Shown one piece after another: positions 25,922 through 47,882 of a DNA stretch of 64,000 bases. Location: the NCBI RefSeq assembly GCF_004785795.1, contig NZ_SRRO01000001.1, positions 4,774,001 through 4,838,000 of the forward strand. The letters run 5' to 3'. The position numbers and the translations under genes were made by a program. The notes under the pieces are model-generated. The model did not search any database. It was given only the letters and a program-made list of their open reading frames with translations, and had not been told where the DNA came from. This stretch comes from Nocardioides eburneiflavus. GTDB taxonomy: Bacteria > Actinomycetota > Actinomycetes > Propionibacteriales > Nocardioidaceae. Within the stretch, counting starts at the first letter, position 1; each line of letters starts with the position of its first letter.

Positions 25922-27322
25922 GTGCGTAGAGCTGCCGCGTCGCGGCGAGGGCCGACCCGTTCGCGGACGGTGCCGGTCCTGCTGGTGGTCACACTGGTCG
26001 TCCTGCTCACCGCGCTGTGGCGCGAGGCAGGGTCGCGCCAGCCGATGAGCAGCGTCGACGAGCACATGCACCTCGACACGCACGCGCACGTCCACGACGG
26101 CACGTACCCGCACCGCGGGTCGCTCATGACGATGGAGGTCGTGCGGGAGTGGGCCTGCGGCGTCGGCCACGAGGCAGGCGACGCCATGGCGCCCTGCGAC
26201 CACCCCGACCTCGGACCCAACTCCCTGCCGTCCGGCATCTACACGTCGGGCTACATCCACTACCCCACGTACTTCGTCCTGGCCGAGGGATATCGCAGTG
26301 CCGCGGAGGCCGTGGGCGGTGGCGGGTCGTTCGTCACGCCCTACCGTCACTTCGCCGCCCTCATGGCCGGCTCGGGGATCCTGATCTGCCTCCTCGCCGG
26401 CTGGCGCCTCGGCTTCCGGGGGGCACGTCTGCTGGCGGCGACGTTCGCCCCCTCTGCCGCTGCGGGCATCCTGCTCTACGGCACGATCGCCAACCCACAG
26501 TCCTCAGCGGTGCTCACCGGCGCGCTGATCGCCTGGAGCGGTCTGCGCTGGGCGATCGGTGGACACGGCTTCTGGTGGCTCGCCGCGGCCACGGCCCTCG
26601 CCGCCTCCCTCGCCGTCGTCCAGTCCCTTCCGGCAGGCGTCTTCATGGTCGCGATGCTCGCCACCCTCGTGCTGCGCCGCCTCGGGTGGACCGTCCCCGG
26701 ACCGTGGCGACCGCGCTGGTGGCAGCTCGGCCTGCTCGCGGTGATCGTGGTGGCCCCTGTCATCGCCTACGGCCGGTGGCTGGAGTCGCGGGCCACCATC
26801 CCCAACAGCGAGCTCTACGGCTTCGCGTCGTTCGACGGTCTCGCCGACGTCGTGCGCGGCGCGCTGTGGGAGCTCTCGATCCTCCACACGCCGTGGTACG
26901 AGTCGGTCTCGCTGGGCGCGGACCCACAGGCACCGCTGGTCCAGCACGCGGCGCGGGCGGCCGTCCAGGGCGTCCCGCTCTGGATGACGCTCGCCGTCTT
27001 CGCGCCGCTCGCCGTGGTCGCCGGCCGCGCACTGCTGCGCGCCCGCGCGGCGTCCACGCAGGAGGACCGCACGGTGGGGATCGTCCCGCTCCTGGTCGTG
27101 TCCGCGTTCGTCACCCTGGTCCTCTTCCCGCCGGCACTGCGGGTGAGCAACGCCTTCAACGTGGGCTTCGACTACCCGATCGTGTCGCGGTACGCGATCT
27201 CGTTCGTCCCGGTGCTGGTGTGGCTCGTGCTGCTGGCCACGCCCGGGCGGCCGGTGCTGGGCAGGGTCCTCGCGACCCTGGGGACGGTGGGCGTGCTCGG
27301 CGTCGGACTGGCGATCTGGTGA
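25922..27322 (+). CDS. Polytopic membrane protein, DUF2142/GT-C-like (copy 1)
   Basis: A 466-residue membrane protein with a basic N-terminus, one TM helix, an extracytoplasmic loop of about 80 residues, then roughly ten more TM helices. The first loop starts SSVDEHMHLDTHAHVHDGTYPHRG; an acidic pair followed by His just after TM1 is characteristic of DUF2142 and other GT-C-like glycosyltransferases, where it marks the active-site loop. A second shared motif is TSGYIHYPTYFVLAEG. It is paralogous along its whole length to the next gene, whose GTG overlaps its stop. It probably moves or transfers lipid-linked sugars in glycan assembly; activity is inferred. GTG 25922 follows GGGGGAACC. Confidence 0.75.
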   Translation: MRRAAASRRGPTRSRTVPVLLVVTLVVLLTALWREAGSRQPMSSVDEHMHLDTHAHVHDGTYPHRGSLMTMEVVREWACGVGHEAGDAMAPCDHPDLGPNSLPSGIYTSGYIHYPTYFVLAEGYRSAAEAVGGGGSFVTPYRHFAALMAGSGILICLLAGWRLGFRGARLLAATFAPSAAAGILLYGTIANPQSSAVLTGALIAWSGLRWAIGGHGFWWLAAATALAASLAVVQSLPAGVFMVAMLATLVLRRLGWTVPGPWRPRWWQLGLLAVIVVAPVIAYGRWLESRATIPNSELYGFASFDGLADVVRGALWELSILHTPWYESVSLGADPQAPLVQHAARAAVQGVPLWMTLAVFAPLAVVAGRALLRARAASTQEDRTVGIVPLLVVSAFVTLVLFPPALRVSNAFNVGFDYPIVSRYAISFVPVLVWLVLLATPGRPVLGRVLATLGTVGVLGVGLAIW

Positions 27323-28773
27323 GGCCCGTGACGCGTACGACCTCCCTGCGCAGCCGCGCGGCCTCGTGGCTCGGCGTCGGCGTCCTCGTCGCCGGCCTGG
27401 TCCTCACCCTGGTCACGACGTGGCGCCTGGCCGGAGAGGGCAAGCCCCTCTCCCCCGTCGACGAGATCGCCCACGCCGACACGGCCTTCAAGGTGCACCG
27501 GGGCACCTACCCCTACCGCGGCGCCGACATCGGCCGGCCGCTCGTCGACACCTGGACCTGCTACTCCGGGCACCAGTCCATCGCGTGGCAGGCGCGGTGC
27601 GGCTCGGCGAAGGCGGTGCCGAGCCGCCTGCCGCAGCCCACGGGCTCGCACACCACCGGCTACATCCACTACCCGACCTACTTCGTGGCCGGTGAGGGGT
27701 TCCGCCGTGCCCACGACGCAGTCGCCGGCGAGGCCCGGTGGGAGCTCGACACCTACCGCCGCTTCGCCGCCGTCGTCGCCGTGCTCGGCATGGCGCTCTG
27801 CGCGTACGTCGCCAGGCGGCTGGGGCTCGGGCCGGCCGGGCAGGTGGCGGCGGCCTTCATCCCGGTCGCCGCGCCGTCGGTGCTCGTCTACTCCACGATG
27901 GTCAACCCCATGTCCGCCGCCGTGCTGTGCGGAGCGCTGGTCGCCGGTGCCGGCCTCCGGTGGCTGCTGACCGGACGCGGCTTCGGCTGGGTCGCGGCCG
28001 CCACGGCGGTCAGCGCCGCCGTCGCGGTGACGGCGTCACTGCCGGCCGGGGTGCTGCTCGTCGCCGTCCTGCTCGGCCTCCTCCTCCGGCTCCGGGGACG
28101 GCGGTTCGACACGCCGTGGGACCCGCGCTGGTGGCACGCCGCCGTCCTCGCCGGGCTGCTCGTCGTGCCGATCCTCGCCTACGGAACCGTGATCGACGCT
28201 CGCGCGACGATCGACGACGCGACGCTCTACGCGCCCTACGCCCGTGCGGGCTGGGAGCAGGTCGCGCTCGGCGTGTGGGCGGAGATCTTCGCCTCCCACC
28301 TGCCGTGGGTCGAGGACGGCAGCCTCGTGCGGCCGGAGCTGGGCACGGTGCGCACCTACGTCCGGGCGGCCGGGATCGGCATGCCGCTGCTGGTCACCGC
28401 GATGGTCGGGGGCGGCCTGATCGCCGGTGCGACGGGCGTGCTGCGCCGGCTCGACCTGCCGTGGCGTCCCACATCGGCGACGGTGCCCGAAGGGCAGTCC
28501 GACGGCCAGCCCGACCGGGAGCCCGTACGCGTGCTCCAGCTGGCGGCCGTCTCGGCCCTGCTGGGCCTGCTGGCCTATCCCCCGCTGCTCCGGCTGCTGA
28601 ACGCCGTCAACGTGGGCATCGACTACCCGGTCGTCTCCCGCTACTCCATCTCCCTCGCCCCGTTCTTCGTGCTGGTGGTCCTCCTGCTCGCGCGCGACCA
28701 CCCTTGGTTCGCCAGGGTCCTCGCCGCGGTCGGCGTGATCTCCGTCGCGGCCTGGTGCGTCAGCGCCTGGTGA
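27319..28773 (+). CDS. Polytopic membrane protein, DUF2142/GT-C-like (copy 2)
   Basis: A 484-residue tandem paralogue of the preceding gene. Shared landmarks are SPVDEIAHADTAFKVHRGTYPYRG after TM1, TTGYIHYPTYFVAGEGFRRA, YGTVIDARATIDDATLY in the fourth or fifth loop, and VNVGIDYPVVSRYSISLAP near the C-terminus. Two extra Cys (TCYSGH, ARCGS) sit in its first loop, as do two Cys in copy 1 (ACGVGH, PCDH), suggesting a conserved disulfide outside the membrane. GTG 27319 overlaps the upstream stop (GTGA); GTG 27328 is an alternative. Likely a partner in a membrane complex of the glycan pathway. Confidence 0.75.
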   Translation: MRPVTRTTSLRSRAASWLGVGVLVAGLVLTLVTTWRLAGEGKPLSPVDEIAHADTAFKVHRGTYPYRGADIGRPLVDTWTCYSGHQSIAWQARCGSAKAVPSRLPQPTGSHTTGYIHYPTYFVAGEGFRRAHDAVAGEARWELDTYRRFAAVVAVLGMALCAYVARRLGLGPAGQVAAAFIPVAAPSVLVYSTMVNPMSAAVLCGALVAGAGLRWLLTGRGFGWVAAATAVSAAVAVTASLPAGVLLVAVLLGLLLRLRGRRFDTPWDPRWWHAAVLAGLLVVPILAYGTVIDARATIDDATLYAPYARAGWEQVALGVWAEIFASHLPWVEDGSLVRPELGTVRTYVRAAGIGMPLLVTAMVGGGLIAGATGVLRRLDLPWRPTSATVPEGQSDGQPDREPVRVLQLAAVSALLGLLAYPPLLRLLNAVNVGIDYPVVSRYSISLAPFFVLVVLLLARDHPWFARVLAAVGVISVAAWCVSAW

Positions 28774-28889: not shown

Positions 28890-30035
28890 ATGCTCGCCAC
28901 CCGTCAGGTCGCCCTCGGTCAGCCCACTGTCGGCGAGGAGGAGATCGAGGCGCTCCGCGAGGTGTTCGCGAGCGGCTGGCTCTCCGGCGCGGGCCCGACC
29001 TGCGTCGCCTTCGAGGGCGAGCTCGCCGCGGCGACCGGCACCGCCCACGCGCTCGCGACGTCCAACTGCGGCTCGTCCTTGCACCTGGCGCTCCAGGTGC
29101 TCGGCGCGGGCCCCGGCGACGAGGTGATCGTCGCCGACTACACCTTCCCCGCCACGGGCCACTCGGTGATGTGGACCGGCGCCACGCCGCGCTTCGCGGA
29201 CGTCCGCCCCGACATCGGCACCATCGACGTCGACGCCGCGGCCGCCCTGGTCAACGAGCGCACGGTGGGCATCATCGCCGTCGACATGGTCGGCCAGCCC
29301 GCCGACTACGACGAGCTCGCCGCGCTCTGCCGCAGCCGTGGGCTGTGGCTGTTGGAGGACGCCGCCTGCTCGGCCGGCGCGACCTACAAGGGCCGGCCGG
29401 CCGGCAGCCTGGCCGACCTGGCCGCGTTCAGCTTCCACGGCCGCAAGGGCATCACTGCCGGCGAGGGCGGCGCGCTGGTCGGCGACGACGCCACGCGCAT
29501 GGACCTGGCCCGCAAGCTGCACACCTACGGCATCGCCCCCGCCGTCAGCCGCGAGGGCTCCTCGGCTCTGGCGGTGCCGTCCTTCGACATGGCGGGCTAC
29601 AACTACCGGATGTCCGACGTGCAGGCCGCCATGATGCGCGTCCAGCTCACCCGGCTCCCGGCCCTCGTCGCGGCGCGCACCGCTGCCGCCGCCGGCTACG
29701 CCGAGCGCCTCGGCGACGCCGAGGGGATCACCCTGCCGGTCGTCGCGGAGAACCGCACCCACCCCTACCAGTCCTACCTCGTGACCACCGACGACACGGT
29801 CGACCGCGACGCCGTGGTGATGGCGCTGCGCGAGCGCGGCGTCGGCAGCAACTTCGGCACGTACGCCTCCCACGTCCAGCCCGTCTACGGCACCCAGGAC
29901 GTGTGCCCGGTGTCGGCCCGACTCTTCGCCACGCAGTTCGCGCTGCCGATGCACGCCAACCTGGTGGCCGACGACCTCGACTACGTCTCCGAGCAGCTGC
30001 GCGACGTCCTCGCCGACCCGGCCGTGCGCCGCTGA
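28890..30035 (+). CDS. DegT/DnrJ/EryC1 sugar aminotransferase (1)
   Basis: A 381-residue PLP-dependent aminotransferase of the family that aminates keto-nucleotide sugars. The PLP Lys lies in FSFHGRKGITAGEGGAL; SNCGSSLHLALQ near the N-terminus and GDEVIVADYTFPATGH and LEDAACSAGATYKGRPAG in the middle are family signatures. It is closest in style to C4- or C3-amination enzymes of O-antigen and antibiotic sugars; the position aminated cannot be decided by eye. ATG 28890 has GGAAGG upstream. It leads a run with an LpxA-like acyltransferase and a second aminotransferase, so amination followed by N-acylation is likely. Confidence 0.88.
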   Translation: MLATRQVALGQPTVGEEEIEALREVFASGWLSGAGPTCVAFEGELAAATGTAHALATSNCGSSLHLALQVLGAGPGDEVIVADYTFPATGHSVMWTGATPRFADVRPDIGTIDVDAAAALVNERTVGIIAVDMVGQPADYDELAALCRSRGLWLLEDAACSAGATYKGRPAGSLADLAAFSFHGRKGITAGEGGALVGDDATRMDLARKLHTYGIAPAVSREGSSALAVPSFDMAGYNYRMSDVQAAMMRVQLTRLPALVAARTAAAAGYAERLGDAEGITLPVVAENRTHPYQSYLVTTDDTVDRDAVVMALRERGVGSNFGTYASHVQPVYGTQDVCPVSARLFATQFALPMHANLVADDLDYVSEQLRDVLADPAVRR

Positions 30036-30055: not shown

Positions 30056-30757
30056 GTGGGCAACGACAACAGGATCCACCCGACCGCGGTCATCGGCCCG
30101 GAGGTCACCCTCGGCACGAACAACGTCGTCGGACCGTTCTGCGTCCTGCAGGGCAGGGTCAGCCTCGGCGACGACAACTACCTCGCCTCGCACGTCGTGG
30201 TCGGCGGTGCCGCGGAGGTGCGCGGCCACGACATGACCGCGTCGTGGGAGGAGCCGTTCGACGGCAACCCCGTCGCCATCGGGTCGCGCAACGTCTTCAA
30301 GGAGATGGTGACGATCAGCGGTGGCTGGGCCCACGAGACCGCGGTGGGCGACGACGGCTTCTTCATGACCAAGGCCCACGTCAACCACGACGGCCGGATC
30401 GGTGACGAGGTCACCGTGTCCGCGATGGTTGTGACCGCCGGCCACGTCACCGTCGGCGACGGCGCCAACCTCGGCCTCGGCACCGTGGTGCACCAGCGCC
30501 TGACCGTGCCGGAGGGGTCGATGATCGGCATGCAGTCCGCCGTGACGCGCCAGCTGCCCCCCTTCGTCGTGAGCATGGGCGTCCCTGCCCGGGCGGCGCG
30601 GCTCAACACCTACCGGCTCGACCGCCTCGGCGTGGCCGCCGACCAGCACGAGCCGCTCGCGGCCGTCGTGCTGCACGGCTCGCGCGACACGAGCGGCCTG
30701 CACGACCCGCTCAAGGCCCCTGTCGAGGCGTGGCTCTCACGCCTCGAGCACCACTGA
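30056..30757 (+). CDS. LpxA-like left-handed beta-helix acyltransferase
   Basis: A 233-residue hexapeptide-repeat protein. The N-terminal coils IHPTAVIGPEVTLGTNNVVGPFCVLQG and the central FMTKAHVNHDGRIGDEVTVSAMVVTAGHV follow E. coli LpxA, including the two His of AHVNHD where LpxA has its catalytic His125. The helical C-terminus characteristic of LpxA (PARAARLNTYRLDRLG) is present. LpxA acylates UDP-GlcNAc in lipid A synthesis, but this organism should have no lipid A, so the acceptor is more likely an amino-nucleotide sugar made by the flanking aminotransferases. GTG 30056 has AGGAG about 10 nt upstream and lies 20 bp past the previous stop. Confidence 0.82.
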   Translation: MGNDNRIHPTAVIGPEVTLGTNNVVGPFCVLQGRVSLGDDNYLASHVVVGGAAEVRGHDMTASWEEPFDGNPVAIGSRNVFKEMVTISGGWAHETAVGDDGFFMTKAHVNHDGRIGDEVTVSAMVVTAGHVTVGDGANLGLGTVVHQRLTVPEGSMIGMQSAVTRQLPPFVVSMGVPARAARLNTYRLDRLGVAADQHEPLAAVVLHGSRDTSGLHDPLKAPVEAWLSRLEHH

Positions 30758-30805: not shown

Positions 30806-31918
30806 ATGTCCGCCGAGTCCCTCCCGTTCATCCCGCCCGCCAAGCCGATCGTCGGCGACGACGAGCGTGCCGCCGTGGACCGCGTGATGCGCTCCGGCAT
30901 GATCGCCCAGGGCCCCGAGGTCGCCGCGTTCGAGCAGGAGTTCGGCGCCGCGGTGGCCGGCGGGCGTACGACCGTGGCCGTGAACTCCGGCACCTCGGCC
31001 CTCCACCTCGGCCTGCTCGCCGCCGGCATCGGGCCGGGTGACGAGGTGATCGTCCCGTCCTTCACCTTCGCCGCGACCGCCAACTCGGTCGCGCTGACCG
31101 GAGCGACGCCGGTCTTCGCCGACGTCGAGCCCGACTACTTCTGCCTCGACGCCGAGAGCGTCCGCGCCGCTGTCACCGAGCGCACCGTGGCGATCATGCC
31201 GGTGCACCTCTACGGCCACCCCGCCGACGTCGACGCGCTGCGCGCCGTCGCCGACGAGCACGGCCTGCGGCTGTTCGAGGACGCCGCCCAGGCCCACCTC
31301 GCGACGTGGAAGGGCGCCCAGGTCGGCTCCTTCGGCGACTTCGCGATGTTCAGCCTCTACCCGACCAAGAACATGACCTCGGGCGAGGGCGGCATGGTCT
31401 CCTGCGCCACCGAGGAGATCGCGCGCACGGTGCGCCTGCTGCGCAACCAGGGCATGGAGCGCCAGTACGCCAACGAGGTCGTCGGCTTCAACGCCCGGAT
31501 GACCGACATCCACGCCGCCATCGGCCGCGTCCAGCTGACCAAGGTCGAGGGCTGGACCAAGGTGCGCCAGGAGAACGCGGCCTACCTCGACGCCCACCTC
31601 GAGGGTGTCGTGGTGCCGCCCGTCGCCGACGACGCGACGCACGTCTACCACCAGTACACGATCAAGGTCGACGGCGACGAGCGCGACCGCATCGTCGCCG
31701 CCATGCGCGAGGAGCACCAGGTCGGCTCGGGCGTCTACTACCCGATCCCCAACCACCAGCTCGCCTCGCTGACCCGCTACGCCGAGGGCCTCGAACTGCC
31801 GGTGACCCAGCAGGTCGCGCGCGAGGTCATCTCGCTGCCGGTCCACCCATCGCTGGGCGAGGCCGACCTCGAGCGCATCGTCACCGCCGTCAACACGACG
31901 GTGCGCGCCGGAGCCTGA
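30806..31918 (+). CDS. DegT/DnrJ/EryC1 sugar aminotransferase (2)
   Basis: A 370-residue aminotransferase. The PLP Lys is in FSLYPTKNMTSGEGGM; VNSGTSALHLGLLAAGIGPGDEVIVPSFTFAATANSV-type N-terminal motifs and FEDAAQAHLATWKG are present. The sequence resembles WbpE/WlbC/GnnB-type enzymes that aminate C3 of keto UDP-sugars, fitting the Gfo/Idh/MocA dehydrogenase at 36741-37694. It is clearly distinct from the first aminotransferase of the cluster, so two different keto-sugars, or two steps, may be served. ATG 30806 has GAAAGG upstream. A strong hairpin follows. Confidence 0.88.
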   Translation: MSAESLPFIPPAKPIVGDDERAAVDRVMRSGMIAQGPEVAAFEQEFGAAVAGGRTTVAVNSGTSALHLGLLAAGIGPGDEVIVPSFTFAATANSVALTGATPVFADVEPDYFCLDAESVRAAVTERTVAIMPVHLYGHPADVDALRAVADEHGLRLFEDAAQAHLATWKGAQVGSFGDFAMFSLYPTKNMTSGEGGMVSCATEEIARTVRLLRNQGMERQYANEVVGFNARMTDIHAAIGRVQLTKVEGWTKVRQENAAYLDAHLEGVVVPPVADDATHVYHQYTIKVDGDERDRIVAAMREEHQVGSGVYYPIPNHQLASLTRYAEGLELPVTQQVAREVISLPVHPSLGEADLERIVTAVNTTVRAGA

Positions 31919-31979: not shown

Positions 31980-33956
31980 TCACCCGCGCTCGCGCAGGGC
32001 GTAGACGTACTGGGGGCCGCCGTTCCAGGTGAAGGTGCGCAGCGGCCGCACGCACGGACCGGGGATCTCCAGCGTCGCGACGACGTAGCCGACGTCGAGG
32101 TCGCTCTCGGCCAGCCAGCACGGGTGGGCGTGGATGACGATGACGTCGGGCGCCGCCTCCTCCACCCACGGGGCGTCGCGCTCGCCGTCGAAGGCGACGT
32201 AGAGGTAGCTCGCCCCGCGGTTCCACACGTTCTCGTACTCGTGGTCGGGGTCGACCTTCTCCCACTCGGACACGATCGGGCCGGTCACCTGGTTGCCGGT
32301 GAGGGTCGGCGCGCCGTTGGCGATGAGCAGCGCGTTGGCCGCCATCGAGTTGGTCGCGATGAGCGTGCCGTCCGCCTCGGCGCGGCGGGTGAGGGCCCGG
32401 GCCGCGTCGGCCGCCGGGCTGCTGCGCAGGTCGCCGACCCCGCGTACGACCGGGTTGGCGTCGATGCCTGCGGCCAGGCACACGACGAGCGTGCCGACGA
32501 CCGGCCACGAGCGGGACGGCCAGCGGGTCACGGCGTAGGCGACGGCCGACACCGCCAGCACGGCCGCCCAGACCTGCCAGGTGGCCAGGTCGGGCAGCGC
32601 GCGGCGCGCGTCGGAGGCGCCGTAGGCGGTGACGACGCCCGTCGTGACGGCGGCGGCCACGGCGAGGCGCGAGGAGTCCCCGGTGAGGCGGGAGACCAGC
32701 AGGACCAGCAGGAGCGTGGCCGGGAAGCCCACCGTCTGTGCCGCCCGGACCGGCAGCACCGCGCTGAGCAGCGGGACGTGCTCGCCGAGCAGGCCCCAGT
32801 CGAACATCGCCCACGCGCTCCACAGCGCGGTGGCCGCGGCGAGGGTGGTGATCGCACCCCTCTGGGCAGTGGTCGCACCCGCCCAGGCGCGCCGCCACAC
32901 CACCAGCGCCCAGAAGGCGCACACCAGGAAGCCGGAGGAGATCTCGCTCTGGTTGAGCAGGGTGGGCGCGGCCCCGTCCTCCATCTCGAACAGCGCCGGC
33001 CCGCCGACGAGCTGGGAGGGCATCTGGGCCGCGCCGGTGACGCGCCGCAGGCCCGGGTAGACCGTGTTGAGCTCGGCCGACAGCGACGCCGCGTTCTCGA
33101 GCAGCGTGCCGGCCAGCACGGCCAGCGAGACGAGCGCGCCGGCGCCCACCGTCAGCAGCGCCTGGCGGCGCGTGACCCGGTCCGCGACGAGGTAGACACC
33201 CGTGGCGATCACCAGGGGCACGCCCAGGGTGAGGGACCACGGCACGTAGTAGGTCACCAGCCGGGCGAGCAGCACCCCCGCAACCGCGGCCTGGAGCACC
33301 GCGACCACCCGGTGCCCGGCGACCATCCGGTCGCGCGCCAGCCAGAGCACGTAGCTGCCGGCAGCCGCGAAGGCCATGATCCGCACCGGCATGAAGGACC
33401 ACCACAGCGACGCCGGGGCGAGGAAGACGAGCACCACGCCCAACCAGGACAGGGGCCGCGACGCGCCCATCCGGCGCAGCAGCGGTGGCAGCGCGAGCAC
33501 GAGGAGCAGCCAGGGCCACGCCCGGAACGCCGAGAACAGCATCTCGTCGGGCAGCCACGGGCCCAGCCGGAGCAGGTTGCCCTCGTGGAAGAGGACCGAC
33601 TCCACGACCTGCCCGGACGAGATCTGGTAGATCAGGTCGGGGTCCTGCGACAGCGACGGGGCCGTCGACGTGCCGTGGGCGAGCACCGAGAGGTCGATGG
33701 GAGCCTGCGTCAGCCACTCGTCGCTGCGGATGGGCAGGGACGTGCCCCACTGGTCGGCACCCTCCCCCGTGCCCTCGACCGACAGCAGGCCGAGCGACGA
33801 GGTGGACAGGCTGCCGAGCACGATCGCGGTGTAGGCCAGCAGCGGTAGCAGCACCTCGAGGCGATCAGGCCAGCTGCCCAGGATCCGCCAGGTGCGCCGC
33901 TCCTCGTCGGGGAGCGGCGATTCCGGTGGCTGCGGTGAATCCGGGGACTCCGACAC
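31980..33956 (-). CDS. Large polytopic membrane protein, GT-C-like (RSDEW motif)
   Basis: A 658-residue membrane protein with a Pro-rich cytosolic N-terminus, about 12-13 TM helices and a soluble C-terminal domain of some 160 residues (from about LTRRAEADGTLIATNS). The loop after TM1 reads LPIRSDEWLTQAPIDLS; Asp-Glu there recalls the catalytic acidic residues in GT-C glycosyltransferases, and the C-terminal extracytoplasmic domain resembles YfhO-type proteins. I recognise it as a DUF7657-like family member but cannot assign a substrate. It is transcribed alone, opposite to its neighbours, from GTG 33956. Likely glycan transferase; inference. Confidence 0.7.
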   Translation of the reverse strand: MSESPDSPQPPESPLPDEERRTWRILGSWPDRLEVLLPLLAYTAIVLGSLSTSSLGLLSVEGTGEGADQWGTSLPIRSDEWLTQAPIDLSVLAHGTSTAPSLSQDPDLIYQISSGQVVESVLFHEGNLLRLGPWLPDEMLFSAFRAWPWLLLVLALPPLLRRMGASRPLSWLGVVLVFLAPASLWWSFMPVRIMAFAAAGSYVLWLARDRMVAGHRVVAVLQAAVAGVLLARLVTYYVPWSLTLGVPLVIATGVYLVADRVTRRQALLTVGAGALVSLAVLAGTLLENAASLSAELNTVYPGLRRVTGAAQMPSQLVGGPALFEMEDGAAPTLLNQSEISSGFLVCAFWALVVWRRAWAGATTAQRGAITTLAAATALWSAWAMFDWGLLGEHVPLLSAVLPVRAAQTVGFPATLLLVLLVSRLTGDSSRLAVAAAVTTGVVTAYGASDARRALPDLATWQVWAAVLAVSAVAYAVTRWPSRSWPVVGTLVVCLAAGIDANPVVRGVGDLRSSPAADAARALTRRAEADGTLIATNSMAANALLIANGAPTLTGNQVTGPIVSEWEKVDPDHEYENVWNRGASYLYVAFDGERDAPWVEEAAPDVIVIHAHPCWLAESDLDVGYVVATLEIPGPCVRPLRTFTWNGGPQYVYALRERG

Positions 33957-36319: not shown

Positions 36320-36754
36320 GTGAGCGCGTCCCTGCCGCCCAACCCGTGGAACGAGCACGCCTGGGTGGTCGGCGAGCCGACGGTCGGTGAGGGCACCTGG
36401 ATCGGTGCCTTCACCGTCATCGACGCCTCGGGCGGGCTCACCATCGGCCGGGGGTGCGACATCTCCTCCGGCGTGCACATCTACACCCACTCCTCGGCGA
36501 GGCGCTGCGTCTCCGGACGCCGCTTCGCCGAGGTGGAGCGCCAGCCCGTCACGATCGGTGACCACGTGTTCGTGGGCGCCGGCGCGATCATCAACATGGG
36601 CGTCACGATCGGTGACGAGGCCGTCGTCGGAGCCGGGGCCGTCGTGACCGCCGACGTCCCTGCCCGCGCGATCGTCGGCGGCGTACCTGCGCGTCAGATC
36701 GGTCGGGTCGACCTCGACGACCCGACCGACCCGCGGCTCGTCACCGGGTCCTGA
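36320..36754 (+). CDS. Hexapeptide-repeat N/O-acetyltransferase (WbbJ/WbpD-like)
   Basis: A 144-residue left-handed beta-helix acetyltransferase: GEGTWIGAFTVIDASGGLTIGRGCDISSG, then VTIGDHVFVGAGAIINMGVTIGDEAVVGAGAVVTADVPARAIVGGVPAR, the usual acetyl-CoA-binding end. The length matches WbpD/WlbB-type enzymes that acetylate a 3-amino group of UDP-sugars. GTG 36320 lies 7 bp after the epimerase stop. Its last 14 bp overlap the end of the convergent dehydrogenase gene. With an aminotransferase and a dehydrogenase nearby, an N-acetylation step is the simplest reading. Confidence 0.85.
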   Translation: MSASLPPNPWNEHAWVVGEPTVGEGTWIGAFTVIDASGGLTIGRGCDISSGVHIYTHSSARRCVSGRRFAEVERQPVTIGDHVFVGAGAIINMGVTIGDEAVVGAGAVVTADVPARAIVGGVPARQIGRVDLDDPTDPRLVTGS

Positions 36755-40149: not shown

Positions 40150-40740
40150 GTGGAGAACCGGGGAGACGACACCGACGAGACCGGCACGGCCGCGAGGCTG
40201 GCCCGTGCGGAGAAGGCGCTGCGCCAGTCCGGCCGCGAGCTGAAGTGGTGGCAGATCGAGCTCGAGCACACCAAGGAGGCCCTGCAGCGCGCGCGGCGCC
40301 AGCGGGCCCGGCTGCGCGACCAGGTCGACTCCCTCTCCGACGCCCTCGCGACCACGCTGTCCGAGGCCTACTGGGCCGCCCAGGACTCGCGCGGCTCCGG
40401 CGTGGCCCGCCTCGTCGGGCGGCGCTCGTCCGGCGACGCCGAGGCCGACCTGGTGCGCGAGGTCGAGGCCAGCGCGGCCTTCGACGGCGGCTGGTACCTC
40501 CGGACCCATCCCAAGGTCCCCGGCACGGGGCTGAGCCCCGCCCTGCACTACGTACGCCACGGCAACGCCAAGCGGCTCGACCCGGGGCCGTCCTTCAGCA
40601 CCGCGGCCTACCTCGAGCGCCACCCCGAGGCGGCCGACGAGGGTCTGCCGGCCCTGCTCCACGCGATCCGCCACGATCGGCTCGGCGAGACCCGCGACGA
40701 CGACGCCACCGCGTCCCCGGCCAGCGACCTGCACCTGTGA
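40150..40740 (+). CDS. Coiled-coil protein with FDxxWYLRTHP repeat (module A, small subunit)
   Basis: A 196-residue soluble protein. Residues about 10-70 form a charged coiled coil (ARLARAEKALRQSGRELKWW...RARRQRARLRDQVDSL). The C-terminal half has two copies of a repeat seen in glycan-associated proteins: AFDGGWYLRTHPKV...ALHYVRHG and FSTAAYLERHPEA...LLHAIRH. It is paralogous to the protein at 45782-46312, and the repeat recurs in the N-terminus of the next protein. Its stop overlaps the GTG of that RgpF-like gene (GTGA), so the two are made together and may interact. Function unknown. Confidence 0.8.
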   Translation: MENRGDDTDETGTAARLARAEKALRQSGRELKWWQIELEHTKEALQRARRQRARLRDQVDSLSDALATTLSEAYWAAQDSRGSGVARLVGRRSSGDAEADLVREVEASAAFDGGWYLRTHPKVPGTGLSPALHYVRHGNAKRLDPGPSFSTAAYLERHPEAADEGLPALLHAIRHDRLGETRDDDATASPASDLHL

Positions 40741-43298
40741 CGGGCATGCTGGACCTCGCCGAGTTCTCCTCGCGCTGGCGCGCCTTCGTCCCCCGGTGGG
40801 TCGCCGCGTCCGACGAGGAGCGCACCCGGCTCGTCGCGGAGGCGATGGCCCACGGCCTGCCCGCTGTCGAGGAGGGCGAGGCGGGCGAGGCCCCGGACCG
40901 CGACGCCGTCCTGGCCGCGGAGGTCGCCGTCATCCGCGCGAGCGGTGAGTTCGACGAGTTCGGCTACATGTGGCACAACCCGGACCTGCGCTGGCACCTG
41001 TGCACCGGGCCCGAGCAGGCGATCCACTTCGCCGAGCGCGGCTGGCACGAGATGCGACACCCCTCCCCCGGCTTCGACCTCTGGCACTACACCAACGCCC
41101 ACCTCGACCCAGAGGACGACGAGGTCAACCCCGTCGTCCACCACGCGCTCGAGGGACGACGCCACGGCCTCGCCACGCTCCCCGAGGTGCAGGAGCTGCC
41201 GGCACCGACGGCGCCCGAGGGCACGCCGCGACGGGTCTGCCTGTTCGCCGCCTTCGACGTCGACGGCATCGTCGACCCGACCGTCGTGTCCTACCTCGCC
41301 GACCTCAGCCGGTTCGCCGACATCTACTACCTCGCCGACTGCGAGCTCGAGGACGGCGAGCTCGACAAGATCGCGCCCTACACCAAGGGCGCCTGGGCGA
41401 TCCGCCACGGCCGCTACGACTTCGGCTCGTACTCGATGCTCGCCACCGACCTCGTCGGCTGGGACGTCATCGACCAGTACGACGAGATGATGCTCGCCAA
41501 CGACTCGTGCTGGCTGGTCCAGCCGCTCGACACCGTCTTCGCCAAGATGGACGCCACCGCGTGCGACTGGTGGGGGCTCCAGGCGACCTACGAGGACTTC
41601 GGCATCAAGGACTACGAGGCGCTCGGCCGGCCGCTGTCGCTCGACGACGTCGAGGAGCAGATGCGCCAGCAGGACCTCTGGCGCTACTCCGACTTCATCC
41701 ACGTCGGCTCCTACTTCCTCGTCTACCGCCGACGCGTGCTGCAGGACCCGGAGTTCCGCCGCCGACTCGAGACCGTCGCCAAGCAGCGCGACAAGACCGC
41801 GATCATCCTCAAGTACGAGATCGGGTTCTCCCGCCACCTCATCCTCGGGGGCTTCCACCTCGCCACCTTCGTCGACGGGATCCTCCCCTACCACCCGGTC
41901 TACCGGGCCTCGGCCTTCGACCTGATGGCCGAGGGCTTCCCGCTCCTGAAGCGACAGTTCCTCTACGAGAACCCCTTCTCCGCCCCCGACCTGCGGTTGT
42001 GGAAGCAGCGCGTGCTCGAGCACGTCCCGGACGCCGACGTCGACGCGATGGAGTCCAACCTGCGCCGGATCGCGCCGGCCTGGAGCCTGCACCGCAGCTT
42101 CGCCATCCGCTCCGGTCCCGACGGCACCGCGGTGCTGCCGGAGCCCCTCGGCTCGGAGACCTTCCCCGACGAGGACCGGTGGGTCCCCTCCTTCGACCAC
42201 TGGTGGGGCTTCCCCGTCGACCCGCGCACCGGCCTGCTCAGCGGCGCGGTCCGCGCCGTGTTCGACGCCGTGCGCGACGACCCGTCGGTGAAGAAGATCG
42301 TGCTGGAGGGTTCGCGCCCGCTGGACGTCTCCGGCCAGAACGTCGTCCGCATCGCCACGGAGAGCCCGCCCGGCCAGATGTACGGCCTGCGGATGGGCAC
42401 GATCTTCACCACGGTCGGCCCCCGCAGCGACGTCAACCACCCGCTGTCGCCGCGCCACCACCGCTTCCTCCAGCTCGGCAGAGCCACCGGTCTGGCGTCC
42501 CCGGACGTCGGGCTCGACGGCAGCGGCGACACCTGGGGCCTGCGCGACGCCAGCGCCCTCGAGCTCGACGACGCGCTCACGCGGGTCGTCGTGGTCTCGG
42601 GCACGCCCGGCGCCGAGGCTGCCGCACGCCTGCCCAGGCTCGACGACGACGGGGTGTGGGCGCTCGGCTCGCCGCGCATCGACCTGCTCGTCGCCGACGA
42701 GGGCGACCTGGCGCCGGCACACCGCGGTGAGCTCGACCGGCTGCGCCGGGTCCTCGCGGGCCGACGCCTGGTGGTCGTCGAGCCGTGGGACACCACGCTC
42801 GACCTCGACGCGCTGGTCGCCTGGGCGAGCGCGCACCCGGACGTCGCCGTGGCCGTACGCCCCGGGACGGGCACGGGCGCCTCCCTGCCCGAGCCACTGC
42901 TCGACCTGTCGGACGAGACCCTCGTCTCCGACCCCGCGAAGACCCCGCTCCCGGTGCACCCGGAGACCGCGTGGCGCTCGGCCGACGTGCTCGTCTCCGG
43001 CTCCGCCGCCGACCTCGCCGACTGGGCGGTGCTCGGCCGGCCGGCCGTCAGCATCGTGACGGACGAGCGGGCTCGCGACGCCGGGCTCCCGCTGCGCTCG
43101 ACCGGCGTGCGCGACCTCGGGCCCGCTCTCGACGCAGCGCTGGAGGCCGGCCCGGACGACGCGTACGTCTCCTGGGGCCGCGGCCTGCACTCCGCGAGCG
43201 ACGGGCACGCCGCCGAGCGCGTCGTCCTCGCGCTCAAGGCGACCTACCTGCCGGTCGACGAGTGGCTGGCCGAGGAGGCCTCGGCCGGGGCGGACTGA
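40737..43298 (+). CDS. RgpF (rhamnan synthesis F)-TagF-like fusion (module A, large subunit)
   Basis: An 853-residue protein. Residues about 70-145 hold the EFGYMWHNPDL...FDLWHYTNAHLD repeat. Residues about 165-440 are an RgpF-type glycan-synthesis domain (RRVCLFAAFDVDGIVD...LADLSRFADIYYLAD, GRYDFGSYSMLATDL, LANDSCWLVQPLD). The C-terminal half (about 500-840) looks like a diverged CDP-glycerol glycerophosphotransferase: GSPRIDLLVADEG and RSADVLVSGSAADLADWAVLGRPAVSI match TagF landmarks, but the WHGT His region reads LQLGRATG, so activity is doubtful. GTG 40737 overlaps the upstream stop; ATG 40746 is an alternative. Paralogous to 43314-45785. No TM segment. Confidence 0.82.
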   Translation: MTGMLDLAEFSSRWRAFVPRWVAASDEERTRLVAEAMAHGLPAVEEGEAGEAPDRDAVLAAEVAVIRASGEFDEFGYMWHNPDLRWHLCTGPEQAIHFAERGWHEMRHPSPGFDLWHYTNAHLDPEDDEVNPVVHHALEGRRHGLATLPEVQELPAPTAPEGTPRRVCLFAAFDVDGIVDPTVVSYLADLSRFADIYYLADCELEDGELDKIAPYTKGAWAIRHGRYDFGSYSMLATDLVGWDVIDQYDEMMLANDSCWLVQPLDTVFAKMDATACDWWGLQATYEDFGIKDYEALGRPLSLDDVEEQMRQQDLWRYSDFIHVGSYFLVYRRRVLQDPEFRRRLETVAKQRDKTAIILKYEIGFSRHLILGGFHLATFVDGILPYHPVYRASAFDLMAEGFPLLKRQFLYENPFSAPDLRLWKQRVLEHVPDADVDAMESNLRRIAPAWSLHRSFAIRSGPDGTAVLPEPLGSETFPDEDRWVPSFDHWWGFPVDPRTGLLSGAVRAVFDAVRDDPSVKKIVLEGSRPLDVSGQNVVRIATESPPGQMYGLRMGTIFTTVGPRSDVNHPLSPRHHRFLQLGRATGLASPDVGLDGSGDTWGLRDASALELDDALTRVVVVSGTPGAEAAARLPRLDDDGVWALGSPRIDLLVADEGDLAPAHRGELDRLRRVLAGRRLVVVEPWDTTLDLDALVAWASAHPDVAVAVRPGTGTGASLPEPLLDLSDETLVSDPAKTPLPVHPETAWRSADVLVSGSAADLADWAVLGRPAVSIVTDERARDAGLPLRSTGVRDLGPALDAALEAGPDDAYVSWGRGLHSASDGHAAERVVLALKATYLPVDEWLAEEASAGAD

Positions 43299-43313: not shown

Positions 43314-45785
43314 TCAGAGGTGCGCGAGCTCGCGCTCGCGCACCCGGCGAACGAACCGGCGCGCAGCGCCTCCGTCGAGCGCCACCACCTCGTCCGGGAC
43401 ACCGGGCGGCGCCTGCCAGCCCGCAGCGGCGGCGGTCGAGAGCGCGTCGAGGAGCCGCTCGACGGGGTCACCCGGGCCGTGCACCACGAGGGCGTTCCCG
43501 GCGGCGCGGGCGTCGAGCAGACCCGCCGCGGAGCCACCGACGAGCGCGGAGGCAGCCCGGAGGACGACCGCGGCGGACACGACGCTGCGGTCGCTGAGGC
43601 CGACCGGAGCCAGCGGCCGGAGTGCCTGCGTCAGGCTCGTCGGCGCGTCCGGCCGGTCCTCGCGCACGCCGAGGACCACTCCGGCGCTGCGGGCCCAGTC
43701 GCCGAGCCGCGCCACGTCGTCCGGTGACCAGGTCGCGGGCCGGTCGCCGCTGAGGACGACCAGCGGGCGACCCTCGAGCCGAGCCCGCAGCCGCGCCTCG
43801 GCCTGTGCCAGGTCGTCGGGCAGCACGTCGGCGAGCAGCAGGTCGTGGCGAGGGAGACCGGTCAGCCACACGTCGTCCGCAGCCAGGTGCGGGTCGGCGA
43901 CCCGGCGTGCTGCGGCCTCGTGGTCGGAGGTCACCGCGACCGCGTCGACGGCGCCGAGGACCGGCGCTGCTCGGCCGGGCGCCCACGGTGCGCCGACGTG
44001 GACGACGCGGTGCCGGGCGGGCAGCGGCGCGTGCGGGAGCGCGGCGTCGAGCGGGTCGGCGACGACGATCACTCCGCACCGCACCACCGCCTCCTGGCCG
44101 TCGAGGGTGGCGATCGGGACGACGCTCACGTTCGTGCCGCTCACGTCGTCGCGCAGGGCCCGGGTGCGGGTCAGGACGACCTTGCGCACGGTCGGGTCGT
44201 GGCGGACCTGCTCGAAGACGGCGCGCACGCTGGGGTCCAGCCGGCCCGACGGCCCGGCCGCGAAGGCCCACCAGTGCCCGAAGGACGGCGTCTCGCGGTC
44301 CATCCGCCGGAACGGGTGGCCCGCGAGGGCGGAGGTGCGTACGGTCCGGCGCCCCGTCGCCGGGTCCTGGACGACGTCGTACGCGTCGTGCACCCGCGCC
44401 GGATCGGTGACGCGGTCGATGTTGGCCGCCATCTCCTCGACCCGCGCCGCCGGAGCGAGCTCGCGCAACCGCTCGCGCCACCGGCCGACGTCGGGCGCGC
44501 GGCGCGGGTTCTCCCCCAGGAAGTTGCGCTTGGCCAGCGGGAAGCCGCGCCCGACCAGGTCGAACACGTGCCGGGAGTAGAGCGGGTGGAACGGCTGGAG
44601 GTCGGGCAGCCAGGTGTCGAAGTCGTAGCCGGCGTCGGTGAGGTGGCGGCTGAGGCCGACCTCGTACTTGTGCACCACGAGGCCCTTGGCCTCCTGCGGG
44701 ACGACCGTGTCGAGCCGCCAGCGGAAGCCCTCGTCGGCGACCACCGGCCGGCGGAAGACCAGGAAGTAGGAGCTCAGGTGCAGGTAGCGAACGTCGCTGA
44801 AGTGCCGCGGGCCGATGAACCGCTGCTTGGCCTCGGCCAGCGGGATCGGGGAGTCGTCGCGGAAGTAGTTCTCGTCGTGCTCCATCGACGTGGCCTGGAG
44901 GCTCCACCAGTCGCACGCCCGGGCGTCCATCGTCGCGAACACGTCGTCGAGCGGGTGGAGCAGGAAGCACGAGTCGTTGGCGAGCAGCAGCTCGTCGTAG
45001 GAGTCGACGACGTCCCAGCCGACCAGGTCGCGCGCGAGCATCGAGAACGAGCCGAAGTCGTAGCCCCCGTGCGGCACGCTCCACGCGCCCGCTGTCACGT
45101 CGGCCAGCTTGTCGAGCTCCCCCGGCTCGAGGACACCGTCGGCGAGGTAGTGGACGTCCGCGTGCCGCGAGAGCTCGCGGAGGTAGGTCACGACGTAGTC
45201 GTCGACCACCCCGTCCGCGTCGTAGGCAGCGAAGAGGCAGAGACGGCGGGGCGTCGTGCCCGCCGGGGGCTGGACGGCGGACCGCTCCGGGGGCGGGTCG
45301 GGGACAGGCCCCCAGCCGAGGTGGCGACCGACGACGAGCCAGTGCAGGAGGGGGTCGGCGCCGTCCGTGGTCGGGTCGAGGCGGTCGACCCAGTAGGACC
45401 AGAGGTCGAAGCGCGGGCTGGGGTTCTGCAGGAGCCGCCAGCCGGTCTCGACGTGGTGGCGGTAGGGGTCCGTGCCGCGTCGCAGCCGGTGGCGCACGGC
45501 GTACTCGTCGGCGTCGAGGAACCCGCTCGCGGCCACCACGGCGCGCGCGGCGGCGACCCGCGCCCGCTCGGGTGGCTGCGCACCGCCGGAACCGCCCGCG
45601 GGCAGCCCGTCACGGAGCACCTCCTCGACGAGCGCGTGGGCCGCCTCGGGGCCGTCGGCGGCCGCACGGCGCCAGCGCCGGACGAAGCCCGCCCACCGGT
45701 CGTCGAAGTCGGCGACGACGGCGCGCCTCTCCGCCAGCCGGTCCTCGAGCCGATCCTGCCCCTCCGGCTGCACGCCGCCCGTCAC
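43314..45785 (-). CDS. RgpF-TagF-like fusion (module B, large subunit)
   Basis: An 823-residue paralogue of the protein at 40737-43298, on the opposite strand and convergent with a 15-bp gap. Same order: repeat region (FLDADEYAVRHRL...FDLWSYWVDRLD), RgpF domain (RRLCLFAAYDADGVVDD, GGYDFGSFSMLARDL, LANDSCFLLHPLD) and a TagF-like C-terminus (GLPRHDLLLADVLPDD, RAASALVGGSAAGLLDARAAGNALV). The TagF His motif is again missing. GTG 45785 overlaps the stop of the small module-B gene (GTGA). Probable role: adding or decorating rhamnose-rich or similar surface glycan; substrate not predictable. Confidence 0.82.
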   Translation of the reverse strand: MTGGVQPEGQDRLEDRLAERRAVVADFDDRWAGFVRRWRRAAADGPEAAHALVEEVLRDGLPAGGSGGAQPPERARVAAARAVVAASGFLDADEYAVRHRLRRGTDPYRHHVETGWRLLQNPSPRFDLWSYWVDRLDPTTDGADPLLHWLVVGRHLGWGPVPDPPPERSAVQPPAGTTPRRLCLFAAYDADGVVDDYVVTYLRELSRHADVHYLADGVLEPGELDKLADVTAGAWSVPHGGYDFGSFSMLARDLVGWDVVDSYDELLLANDSCFLLHPLDDVFATMDARACDWWSLQATSMEHDENYFRDDSPIPLAEAKQRFIGPRHFSDVRYLHLSSYFLVFRRPVVADEGFRWRLDTVVPQEAKGLVVHKYEVGLSRHLTDAGYDFDTWLPDLQPFHPLYSRHVFDLVGRGFPLAKRNFLGENPRRAPDVGRWRERLRELAPAARVEEMAANIDRVTDPARVHDAYDVVQDPATGRRTVRTSALAGHPFRRMDRETPSFGHWWAFAAGPSGRLDPSVRAVFEQVRHDPTVRKVVLTRTRALRDDVSGTNVSVVPIATLDGQEAVVRCGVIVVADPLDAALPHAPLPARHRVVHVGAPWAPGRAAPVLGAVDAVAVTSDHEAAARRVADPHLAADDVWLTGLPRHDLLLADVLPDDLAQAEARLRARLEGRPLVVLSGDRPATWSPDDVARLGDWARSAGVVLGVREDRPDAPTSLTQALRPLAPVGLSDRSVVSAAVVLRAASALVGGSAAGLLDARAAGNALVVHGPGDPVERLLDALSTAAAAGWQAPPGVPDEVVALDGGAARRFVRRVRERELAHL

Positions 45786-46312
45786 CGGCTCGCCGGCGGG
45801 TAGGCGTCGGCGCCCTCGGCCTCGGCCGAGGCGAGGAAGTGCACCAGCGGGTTGATCCGCTCGACGATGACCTCGGGGTGGTCGAGGACGTACTGGGCGA
45901 TGTCGAAGGCCTCGCTCGGCTTGCGGAAGGGGTGGTCCCAGTGGCGCAGGAAGTGCACGCCGGGGTCCTCCCCGCGCTTGGCGACGTCGAGGTGGGTGCG
46001 CAGGTAGTAGGCGGCGTCGAAGAGCGGCGACTGCCGGATCAGCTCCAGCTGTCCGGCCTCCTCGGCCGTCACGCTCGTCGAGCCGCGCCTCCACCACGAC
46101 TTCTCGCCGGCTCCCGCCACCGCGGTCTCACCGCGCAGCCTCTCGGCGAGCAGCGCGGACAGCGTCTCGGCGGCCTTGGCCGCGCGGTCGCGGGACTTGC
46201 GCAGCCGCGCCTCGCGCTCACCCCACTTCTCCTGCTCGGCGCGCGCGGCGGCCAGCTCGCGGCGCAGCAGGTCGACCTCGTCGCGCAGGGTCTCCAGGTC
46301 GGGCTCGCTCAC
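45782..46312 (-). CDS. Coiled-coil protein with FDAAYYLRTH repeat (module B, small subunit)
   Basis: A 176-residue paralogue of the protein at 40150-40740. The N-terminal coiled coil reads LETLRDEVDLLRRELAAARA; two C-terminal repeats are LFDAAYYLRTHLDV...VHFLRHW and AFDIAQYVLDHPEV...LVHFLASA. Its stop overlaps the GTG of the large module-B gene, mirroring module A. GTG 46312 has TAGAGT 7 nt upstream and no Shine-Dalgarno, so it has its own leaderless promoter in the 20-bp gap after the CrtA-like gene. Confidence 0.8.
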   Translation of the reverse strand: MSEPDLETLRDEVDLLRRELAAARAEQEKWGEREARLRKSRDRAAKAAETLSALLAERLRGETAVAGAGEKSWWRRGSTSVTAEEAGQLELIRQSPLFDAAYYLRTHLDVAKRGEDPGVHFLRHWDHPFRKPSEAFDIAQYVLDHPEVIVERINPLVHFLASAEAEGADAYPPASR

Positions 46313-46319
46313 CCGCCGC

Positions 46320-46325
46320 ACTCTA
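46320..46325 (-). promoter_or_regulatory. -10 element (TAGAGT) of module B
   Basis: TAGAGT on the minus strand is 7 nt before GTG 46312 and begins 8 nt after the preceding stop, a compact internal leaderless promoter. Both modules therefore start with a leaderless promoter. Confidence 0.55.
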
Positions 46326-46332
46326 GCGACCC

Positions 46333-47031
46333 CTAGCGGACCGGGACGATGCCGCTGCGGCCCTGCCACGTCCCGTGCTCGGACAGCGGCCGGAACCGGT
46401 AGGTCGCGAACTCGCGGTGGAAGTCGCGACGCTCCCGCTCGGCCATCGCGGTGGCGTGGCGAGCGGGCTCCGAAACCTGCGAGCGGCCGTGGACCATGTC
46501 CTCCATCTCCCGCACGCTGCGCCACACGGAGAACGTCGAGATCGTGCGCGGCGGGCGTACGGCGGCCAGCGCCAGCGTGACGCCGGGATGGTCGCGCACG
46601 AGCCGCTCCACGGGCTTGCCGTGGCGCAGGAAGCGGGGCACCTCCGGGAGTCGCATCCGCGCCAGGGTGACGGCCACGACGGGCTCGTCCTGCGCCCAGG
46701 TGCCCGCGCGGACCGGCAGCCCCGGGAGCGCGTCGAGGGTCGACCAGCGCCGCAGGAACTCCAGCCGCACGTGCCAGCCCCCGGCGAGCGAGCGGCCGAG
46801 CGGGTCGTGGGCGAGGAAGCCCTCGAGCGCCGCCTCGTCGCGCCACTGCGCGAAGACGGCGATCCGGCGCAGCTGCAAGCGGTCGGGCGACACCGTCGGT
46901 GCACCGAGCCGCATCAACGACAGGCACTCGGCGTGGTCGAGCCCGTCGACCGCGTGCCCCCGCGGGCGCAGGAGCGCCTGCGCACCGACCCGGCGCGGGA
47001 CCTCGGCGAGGTGGAAGGAGTGCAGGCTCAC
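46333..47031 (-). CDS. Spheroidene monooxygenase (CrtA)-like protein
   Basis: A 232-residue protein resembling the CrtA family: LMRLGAPTVSPDRLQLRRIAVFAQWRDEAALEGFLAHDP, then GTWAQDEPVVAVTLARMRL and STFSVWRSVREMEDMVHGR. CrtA is a heme-type oxygenase acting on carotenoids in purple bacteria; in actinobacteria the name is passed to proteins of unknown substrate. No carotenoid genes are nearby. GTG 47031 overlaps the stop of the upstream gene (GTGA), so the two are coupled. It may be an auxiliary enzyme of the glycan region or merely border it. Confidence 0.65.
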   Translation of the reverse strand: MSLHSFHLAEVPRRVGAQALLRPRGHAVDGLDHAECLSLMRLGAPTVSPDRLQLRRIAVFAQWRDEAALEGFLAHDPLGRSLAGGWHVRLEFLRRWSTLDALPGLPVRAGTWAQDEPVVAVTLARMRLPEVPRFLRHGKPVERLVRDHPGVTLALAAVRPPRTISTFSVWRSVREMEDMVHGRSQVSEPARHATAMAERERRDFHREFATYRFRPLSEHGTWQGRSGIVPVR

Positions 47032-47882
47032 GCGGCACGGTCCGGATCGTGGTCCAGCCTGTAGTGCAGCCGCACGGCCGAGGCTCCCCACAGCCGGACC
47101 TCGTGGTCGGTGCGCAGCACGCCGTGCTGGTCGACGTCGAGGTGGAAGGTCTCGTGCAGCGGCACCCGGGCCGCGTGGGTGCGCCCGCCGTCGCGGACCA
47201 CGACGTACGCGCCGTCCTGGCCGAAGCGACCGGCCGGGGACTCGAGCAGGAGCCCGCCGTCACCGGCCACCGACGGCCGCAGGAACACCTGCACGTTGCC
47301 GGACTCGAGCGGGAAGGCGACGTGCACGCTCGGGCCGACCGCGCCGGGGAGCGTACGCGCGGAGTAGGCGCCGCTGAAGACGGGCCGTCCGCTGCCGCGG
47401 AGCGTACGCGTCCACGCCGCCGCGACCTGGCTGCCGTGGGCGTCGCGGACAGGGGTCACCCGGCTGTCCATCCCCCGCGCCACGTCGAGCGGCCGCATCG
47501 GCAGCGCGAGCTGCTCGACGCGCCGCCCCCACAGCCGCGAGACGAGCTCGCCGCCCGGCCAGAACAGCGGCGACCAGCCGGTCCACACCTCCATCTGCCA
47601 CTCGGACGTGTGCTCGTAGAAGTCGCGCACCTCGGGACGGAGCCGGCGTGAGTCGAACCCGGGACCGTCGAGCGCGGCCATCGAGGGCAGCAGCCCGGCA
47701 CTGTCGTCGTGCGGGCCCAGCACTCCCCCGCGTCGGGCGGCCTCTGCCTCGAGCCACGCGGTGGTGACCCGTGACGACTGGCTCATGGGGGCGTCCAGCC
47801 ACCGCTCGGGTCCGTCGAGGTCGACCTCGCGGCCGGTCAGCCGCCAGAACTTGCGGGTCCCGAGATCGAGGAGGTGCAGCAC
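47028..47882 (-). CDS. Conserved hypothetical protein
   Basis: A 284-residue soluble protein I do not recognise by name. Conserved-looking stretches are VRDFYEHTSEWQMEVWTGWSPLFWPGGELVSRLWGRRVEQLALPM and GMDSRVTPVRD, rich in Trp. No signal peptide, TM helix or known catalytic motif is seen. GTG 47882 lies 34 bp downstream of the radical-SAM stop on the same strand, and the CrtA-like gene overlaps its stop, so these may be one transcript. It marks the edge of the island on this side. Confidence 0.65.
   Translation of the reverse strand: MLHLLDLGTRKFWRLTGREVDLDGPERWLDAPMSQSSRVTTAWLEAEAARRGGVLGPHDDSAGLLPSMAALDGPGFDSRRLRPEVRDFYEHTSEWQMEVWTGWSPLFWPGGELVSRLWGRRVEQLALPMRPLDVARGMDSRVTPVRDAHGSQVAAAWTRTLRGSGRPVFSGAYSARTLPGAVGPSVHVAFPLESGNVQVFLRPSVAGDGGLLLESPAGRFGQDGAYVVVRDGGRTHAARVPLHETFHLDVDQHGVLRTDHEVRLWGASAVRLHYRLDHDPDRAA

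Follow-up and report, generated by a model that had tools for sequence, protein, structure and literature searches.

We analysed a 64,000-nucleotide stretch of a 5.0-Mb Nocardioides genome in two contigs (positions 4,774,001-4,838,000; hereafter the window), in which 18 genes on both strands (25970-47882) are enclosed by a TIGR03936/DUF2344 gene and a TIGR03960 radical-SAM (rSAM) gene. The junction between these two genes is a genus-wide variable slot rather than the site of a strain-specific insertion. We favor, with a probability of about 0.68, the reading that the contents of this slot are exchanged in place by homologous recombination via the conserved flanks and that the genes in it specify an amino-sugar glycan. 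Whole or partial clusters would be swapped between species without a mobile element, through rplU-rne on one side and rod/mre on the other, and an exchange would sometimes take along a passenger housekeeping gene (DUF2344) or strand glycan genes outside the pair. The left edge of the slot is the DUF2344 gene (25120-25848, minus strand; TIGR03936, 185.9 bits against an NCBIfam cut-off of 71.9) and the right edge is the B12-binding rSAM gene (47917-49890, minus strand; 675.9 bits, cut-off 462.3). Family matches of the flank genes confirm that the backbone continues on either side: rne (RNase E/G; 21486-24800, minus strand; PF10150), L21, L27, obg, and an AA_kinase+PUA gene (labelled proB) on the left; and an FtsW/RodA-family gene (labelled rodA; 49976-51163, minus strand; PF01098), a penicillin-binding protein gene, mreD, mreC, and mreB on the right. 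The presence of 18 genes on both strands inside the pair was likewise borne out by gene calling with a codon model and dynamic programming.

The original prediction was that the two enclosing genes normally sit together, which holds for the class at large but not for Nocardioides. In the class sample outside the window's order, 42 out of 59 same-contig, same-strand pairs have less than 400 bp between the hidden Markov model (HMM) matches; this count leaves out five genomes of the window's family (four of them Nocardioides), a partial rSAM match in G292, and secondary matches, and four of 63 genomes without a same-contig pair were dropped. Within the window's order, outside the genus, the pair is adjacent in 15 out of 99 genomes (10 of 109 were dropped for different contigs or strands). 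Adjacency is found in all seven genomes of genus f2g9 and in five of six of genus f4g10, and 8.7-15.9 kb lies between the pair in the 30 measurable of the 38 genomes of f3g7, a genus with large genomes. For Nocardioides we obtained 88 placements in 87 genomes, G017 (9% contamination) contributing two of them. Omitted were G004 and G016, which gave no rSAM match, G070, whose match is partial, minor secondary matches, and eight genomes in which DUF2344 is missing or lies on another contig than rSAM. Strand and order are constant, and the gap ranges from 3 bp to 31.6 kb: one gap is 3 bp long, 39 gaps fall in the 1-5 kb range, 24 in 5-10 kb, and 17 in 10-20 kb, and seven are above 20 kb, the 22,072-bp gap of the window being the fifth largest. 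The sole adjacent case (G076, where the rSAM stop overlaps the DUF2344 start) sits at the end of a 7,042-bp contig in a genome of about 400 contigs. General non-adjacency in the genus, which the original prediction itself had named as the finding that would speak against it, is thus what we observed (87 out of 88 placements).

Next to this size range stands a strong turnover of gene content. When the proteins of the intervals of 86 relatives and the window were predicted and clustered together, the 87 intervals gave 179 clusters, whose labels (glycan etc.) rest on one or two scanned members per cluster; together with the gap range this upholds the earlier description of the locus as a hotspot. 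Across the genus sample the junction is most often 1-10 kb long and typically holds AlkZ-like glycosylase or MFS/DUF4190 genes. The window belongs to a group of 17 genomes that forms a supported clade on the rSAM tree. At least one glycan-labelled cluster is present in all 17 clade intervals and AlkZ-like or MFS/DUF4190 clusters in none of them, versus 9 and 63, respectively, of the other 70 intervals. Since the usual occupants are absent from the clade and glycan clusters are found in all its slots, the glycan genes stand in their place. Control junctions nearby are tight in the same 17 genomes: proB-obg spans -7 to 47 bp, rodA-pbp2 8 to 62 bp, and mreC-mreB 3 to 18 bp; obg-L27, L27-L21, pbp2-mreD, and mreD-mreC are also below 200 bp, and the first junction past mreB reaches up to 849 bp. 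Among 19 intervals outside the genus scanned with the cluster HMMs, none of six from f3g7 matches a glycan HMM and two from f1g3 match GT2a or an epimerase, a scan of low sensitivity that labelled DUF2344 itself in only 5 of the 19 (the ends were cut close). The genes of the f3g7 intervals (L136-L141) match no cluster HMM save one S8-type gene.

The island of the window is shared by other species. Its gene order is common to G012 and G022, in which 6.7 and 9.5 kb, respectively, lie between the two RgpF genes, with transposase-like genes there (by eye). The right half of the island, within the reach of the loci examined, occurs in N. cavernae and, except for an uncalled oxidoreductase gene, in N. 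ganghwensis; both are without the gene pair at 46333-47882. One of the two RgpF proteins has relatives in named records of the same two species (N. ganghwensis 92%, N. cavernae 82%). With four other species-level genomes carrying the island or its examined part, the term strain-specific is not supported. In a further genome, G089, two glycan cluster types apparently lie in tandem within one slot (L012 and L013).

The evidence for exchange comes from the distribution of island types, named from gene order with one genome per species: A (G000, the window's genome, with G012 and G022), B (G030, G089, G075), C (G017, G084, G053), D (G096, G007), E (G019, G046), and F (G074, G077). On a flank tree built from nine flank genes of the 17 clade genomes, none of the six types is a clade. 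When each type was forced to be monophyletic, the approximately unbiased (AU) test gave p values of 0.054 for A, 8e-7 for B, 2e-70 for C, 3e-6 for D, 3e-5 for E, and 0.042 for F. Recombination of the flanks may underlie this conflict between type and tree and the difference between the trees of the rne side and the rod side.

Glycosyltransferase genes are also found outside the pair in some relatives. Type C genomes have two genes in a stretch of about 3.4 kb that separates rne from DUF2344. One, found in each of the three, encodes a 406-aa GT4-type protein; the other is a WsaF-type glycosyltransferase gene by the family matches of its G017 and G053 copies, and a copy is present in G084 as well. 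The DUF2344 proteins of these three genomes are 70-73% identical to that of the window, versus 83-90% in the other 13, and their other flank genes are not divergent in the same way. In G074 and G030 the rSAM-rodA junction holds a two-domain GT2 gene (982 and 1011 bits to the cluster HMM). Between rplU and rne, G030 and G075 carry a gene for a protein of some 750 aa whose C-terminal part is a GT2 domain; G089 and G019, the genomes most closely related to them, lack this gene. Genus-wide, more than 1 kb separates rSAM from rodA in 60 out of 77 genomes, and more than 6 kb separates L21 from DUF2344 in 13 out of 86. The pair is therefore not a precise boundary: the precise insertion point proposed earlier fits the window itself, but in relatives glycosyltransferase genes are found beyond the pair as well.

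A number of observations weigh against exchange in place and have to be set beside this evidence. The window's own type A is not firmly non-clonal, with its AU p of 0.054 and a bootstrap of 58 for the split that isolates G000. The types were named once a quick flank tree had been seen, and the rne-side and rod-side trees differ, so that the flank tree may mix histories; for these two reasons the AU p values serve as a guide only. Shared islands are no more alike than their flanks (G000 with G012/G022, median 88% versus 90-93% amino acid identity), so that any exchange would be old or would have been combined with loss. The comparison pinned down no crossover point. The DUF2344 tree places G017, G084, and G053 together outside the clade, yet the AU test does not reject monophyly of the gene in the 17 (p 0.41), and an import of this gene is therefore argued from gene order and identity more than from the tree; synonymous sites were uninformative for dating it, with third positions near saturation. 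Transposase-like genes do sit inside the G012 and G022 islands. As to the product, a glycan is deduced from protein families only, and the Pfam and NCBIfam searches of the 18 genes matched neither a Wzy polymerase nor a Wzx flippase nor an ABC exporter, several membrane proteins being unassigned.

Part of this is what one would expect of an ancient composite glycan locus that was present in the clade ancestor and inherited vertically, the lineages retaining different parts of it without exchange. In all 12 pairs compared the island proteins are as diverged as the flank proteins or more; the apparent tandem of two cluster types in G089 is an arrangement that a composite ancestor could have had; and the p value of the window's type stays above 0.05. 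We nonetheless regard vertical inheritance as unlikely, though it is the strongest of the alternatives: the AU test rejects clade status for five types out of six at p < 0.05 and for four at p < 1e-4, types B and C are spread over well-separated branches, and a divergent DUF2344 has glycosyltransferase genes on both sides. A second alternative, a secreted or small-molecule glycoside cluster (an aminosugar natural product) rather than a surface glycan locus, appears very improbable. Pathways for antibiotic sugars, too, include DegT aminotransferases, epimerases, and acyltransferases, one DegT protein of the island has TlmJ as its best PDB match, and an oxidase is among the genes; but two RgpF proteins with TagF-like parts, an LPG_synthase_TM protein, a DUF7657 protein, and two more membrane proteins suggest polymers of the wall or membrane, and no polyketide or peptide synthase scored over cut-off among the 18 genes (Pfam/NCBIfam).

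The composition of the block bears on the remaining alternative. Island and window hardly differ in GC content (0.731 vs. 0.730) or in GC at third codon positions (0.963 vs. 0.957), and the codon cost has a p of 0.39; GC and codon bias, proposed earlier as a check, do not mark the block as foreign. No integrase or transposase was matched among the 18 island genes (Pfam, NCBIfam), no tRNA was found in the island, no Rfam match in the window exceeded the gathering score, no conserved element was seen at the slot edges (by eye), and no plasmid or phage record gave a match covering more than 2% of the block at megablast sensitivity. That one mobile element recently inserted itself between two neighboring genes is hence the least credible explanation and can be dismissed for the genus: although similarity within the clade, judged by eye, drops around the start of DUF2344 and the stop of rSAM other than between genomes of a shared type, and although G012 and G022 carry the transposase-like genes, 87 of 88 placements are non-adjacent, the same island type occurs in several species, and the native composition and the tRNA, integrase, transposase, plasmid, and phage searches give no support.

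Recombination through the flanks may be part of a wider picture, which we put forward tentatively and at a little under even odds. In it, rplU-rne-TIGR03936-TIGR03960-rodA would form, in this clade, a platform with glycan genes at all four junctions, types would cross species by core-gene recombination that can swap a passenger housekeeping gene, and the RgpF/TagF pair would have lost its glycerophosphate-polymerase motifs in the slot and so taken on a new role. The RgpF domain (PF05045) scores above cut-off twice in the island. The plus-strand copy (40746-43298) and its convergent minus-strand paralogue (43314-45785) are 41% identical, and each adjoins a small partner protein of cluster 9 (40150-40740, plus strand, with repeats of YLxxxPDVxxxGxxPxxHYxxxG type by eye, and 45782-46312, minus strand, also a repeat protein). 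This convergent arrangement with partners is present in 7 of the 87 intervals, one partner being uncalled in G012. A recent inversion between the two convergent modules is unlikely, given 41% protein identity and a longest inverted repeat of 365 nt at 77%. The structure model of the 43314-45785 protein has a predicted local distance difference test (pLDDT) score of 91, and its best Foldseek match is TagF (3l7j; E 2e-9, probability 1.00, template modelling (TM) score 0.51 of the target), with other GT-B folds (UDP-GlcNAc 2-epimerases) nearly matching that score; a PDB sequence search of one RgpF protein found no match. Three RgpF homologues at 41-43% identity match RgpF and Glyphos_transf outright. 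The WHGxPxK and (S/T)DYSS-type motifs are catalytic in TagF-type enzymes. Both motifs are absent from all 18 slot copies examined (window, six relatives, L095, and L096), from the C-terminal part of the plus-strand copy and the TagF-like C-terminal fold of its paralogue alike, whereas some homologues keep them: WHGxPxK is found in 15 of 120 RgpF homologues among the matches listed, and both motifs in three of the nine copies inspected from other addresses (one each in G006, G078, and G027). The slot proteins thus resemble RgpF rhamnan and TagF wall teichoic acid enzymes in joining an RgpF domain to a TagF-like fold, and differ from plain RgpF or TagF in being a fusion without the TagF motifs. 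The RgpF domain is shared with the RgpF rhamnan cluster, but rml (dTDP-rhamnose) genes were not found, no such model scoring over cut-off among the 18 genes.

Strong RgpF homologues (E < 1e-90) are present in 15 out of 98 genomes, eight at the slot and seven elsewhere, in a scan that scored at most 10 candidates per genome; the slot case of G093 lies beside DUF2344, with rSAM on a separate contig. Copies 53-78% identical to those of the window are all at the slot, and the remaining copies, including the second copy of each slot, are 39-46% identical. A different glycan module is marked by DUF2304, which scores over cut-off in 37 of the 98 genomes. Of the 17 clade members, 14 have it, in every case at the slot, and genomes outside the clade often have it at other places; no match over cut-off was found in the window's genome, G012, or G022. 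By these placements Nocardioides has at least two addresses for glycan genes, of which the slot is one. At another such address, four genomes (L157, L159, L161, and L166) carry a gene of roughly 1190 aa close to RgpF or DUF2304 genes.

The product of the island is probably a wall or surface glycan with amino sugars, judging from the families encoded. About 18 glycan-related genes had been predicted; all 18 genes exist, but 15 are of glycan type, some weakly so, and three are not. Ten of the 18 carry glycan-type Pfam domains above cut-off (DegT and Hexapep twice each, GT4, Epimerase, GFO/IDH/MocA, LPG_synthase_TM, and RgpF twice), and the other five of the 15 are the DUF7657/DUF7654 protein, two membrane proteins, and the two small RgpF partners. 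From the left, the island begins with two paralogous membrane proteins (42% identity) that are perhaps GT-C enzymes, at 25970-27322 (plus strand; no Pfam match) and 27328-28773 (plus strand; a weak PMT_2 match under the curated cut-off). A DegT/DnrJ/EryC1/StrS aminotransferase follows (28890-30035, plus strand; PF01041), whose nearest PDB relatives after TlmJ are perosamine synthetase and ArnB, then an LpxA-like hexapeptide acyltransferase (30056-30757, plus strand; family match) and a second DegT aminotransferase (30806-31918, plus strand), which has scyllo-inositol transaminase as its best PDB match and QdtB and WbpE further down. QdtB and WbpE are sugar 3-aminotransferases. The DUF7657/DUF7654 protein (31980-33854, minus strand; family match), of unknown function, was counted as glycan-type because it recurs in glycan intervals. 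Downstream are a GT4 glycosyltransferase (34147-35346, plus strand; PF00534, PF13579), an NAD-dependent sugar epimerase/dehydratase (35389-36312, plus strand; PF01370), and a maltose-acetyltransferase-like hexapeptide acetyltransferase (36320-36754, plus strand; family match). The GFO/IDH/MocA oxidoreductase (36741-37694, minus strand) is nearest in NCBIfam to UDP-GlcNAc 3-dehydrogenase, below cut-off; the caller took a later start at 37652, and the longer frame spans the full Rossmann profile. An LPG_synthase_TM-type membrane protein (37860-38825, plus strand; PF03706, 62.8 bits, cut-off 33.4) completes the set to the left of the RgpF modules. The combination of oxidoreductase, DegT, and hexapeptide enzymes presumably resembles a route to a 3-amino or 2,3-diamino sugar; the GT4 and RgpF transferases, together with the membrane enzymes, would then assemble the glycan.

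The three genes that are not of glycan type are an L-2-hydroxyglutarate oxidase gene and two genes at the right edge. The oxidase gene (38872-40074, minus strand; NF008726, 558.8 bits, cut-off 299) lies within the glycan island and is present in the islands of G012, G022, N. ganghwensis, and N. cavernae too. The gene at 46333-47031 (minus strand) has a weak match to spheroidene monooxygenase (NF045923, 34 bits, cut-off 300) and no glycan match. The gene at 47028-47882 (minus strand) encodes an unknown protein, also with no glycan match, and adjoins rSAM directly in 11 of its 12 intervals. Homologues of the two are found in 11 and 12 intervals, respectively, four of which are without glycan clusters, and the two were not classed as glycan genes; intervals free of glycan clusters that hold the gene pair include those of G059, G073, and G091.

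Among known systems, capsule loci such as pneumococcal cps also have a fixed address. Klebsiella K loci (PMC13043062) are alike in having different glycan cassettes at one address that are exchangeable between backgrounds; in distinction to both, the present slot is in an actinobacterium, was compared between species, and gave no Wzx/Wzy or ABC exporter match. Hotspots of horizontal transfer without mobile elements are a known model (Oliveira et al., 2017; PMC5635113). The likeness lies in variable content between conserved core genes and in a window block without integrase, transposase, or tRNA, apart from the transposase-like genes of G012 and G022; the Nocardioides slot differs in being shared across species and in having neighboring junctions that hold glycosyltransferase genes in relatives. 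In the open-licence literature searched we found no paper on a capsule-like exchange locus of this kind in this group. The recombination model can be tested through the divergent DUF2344 allele and through the neighboring junctions with their glycosyltransferase genes. With its fixed position, the slot allows the surface-glycan types of Nocardioides species to be read and compared, and the glycan type it holds may matter for phage sensitivity and wall chemistry.

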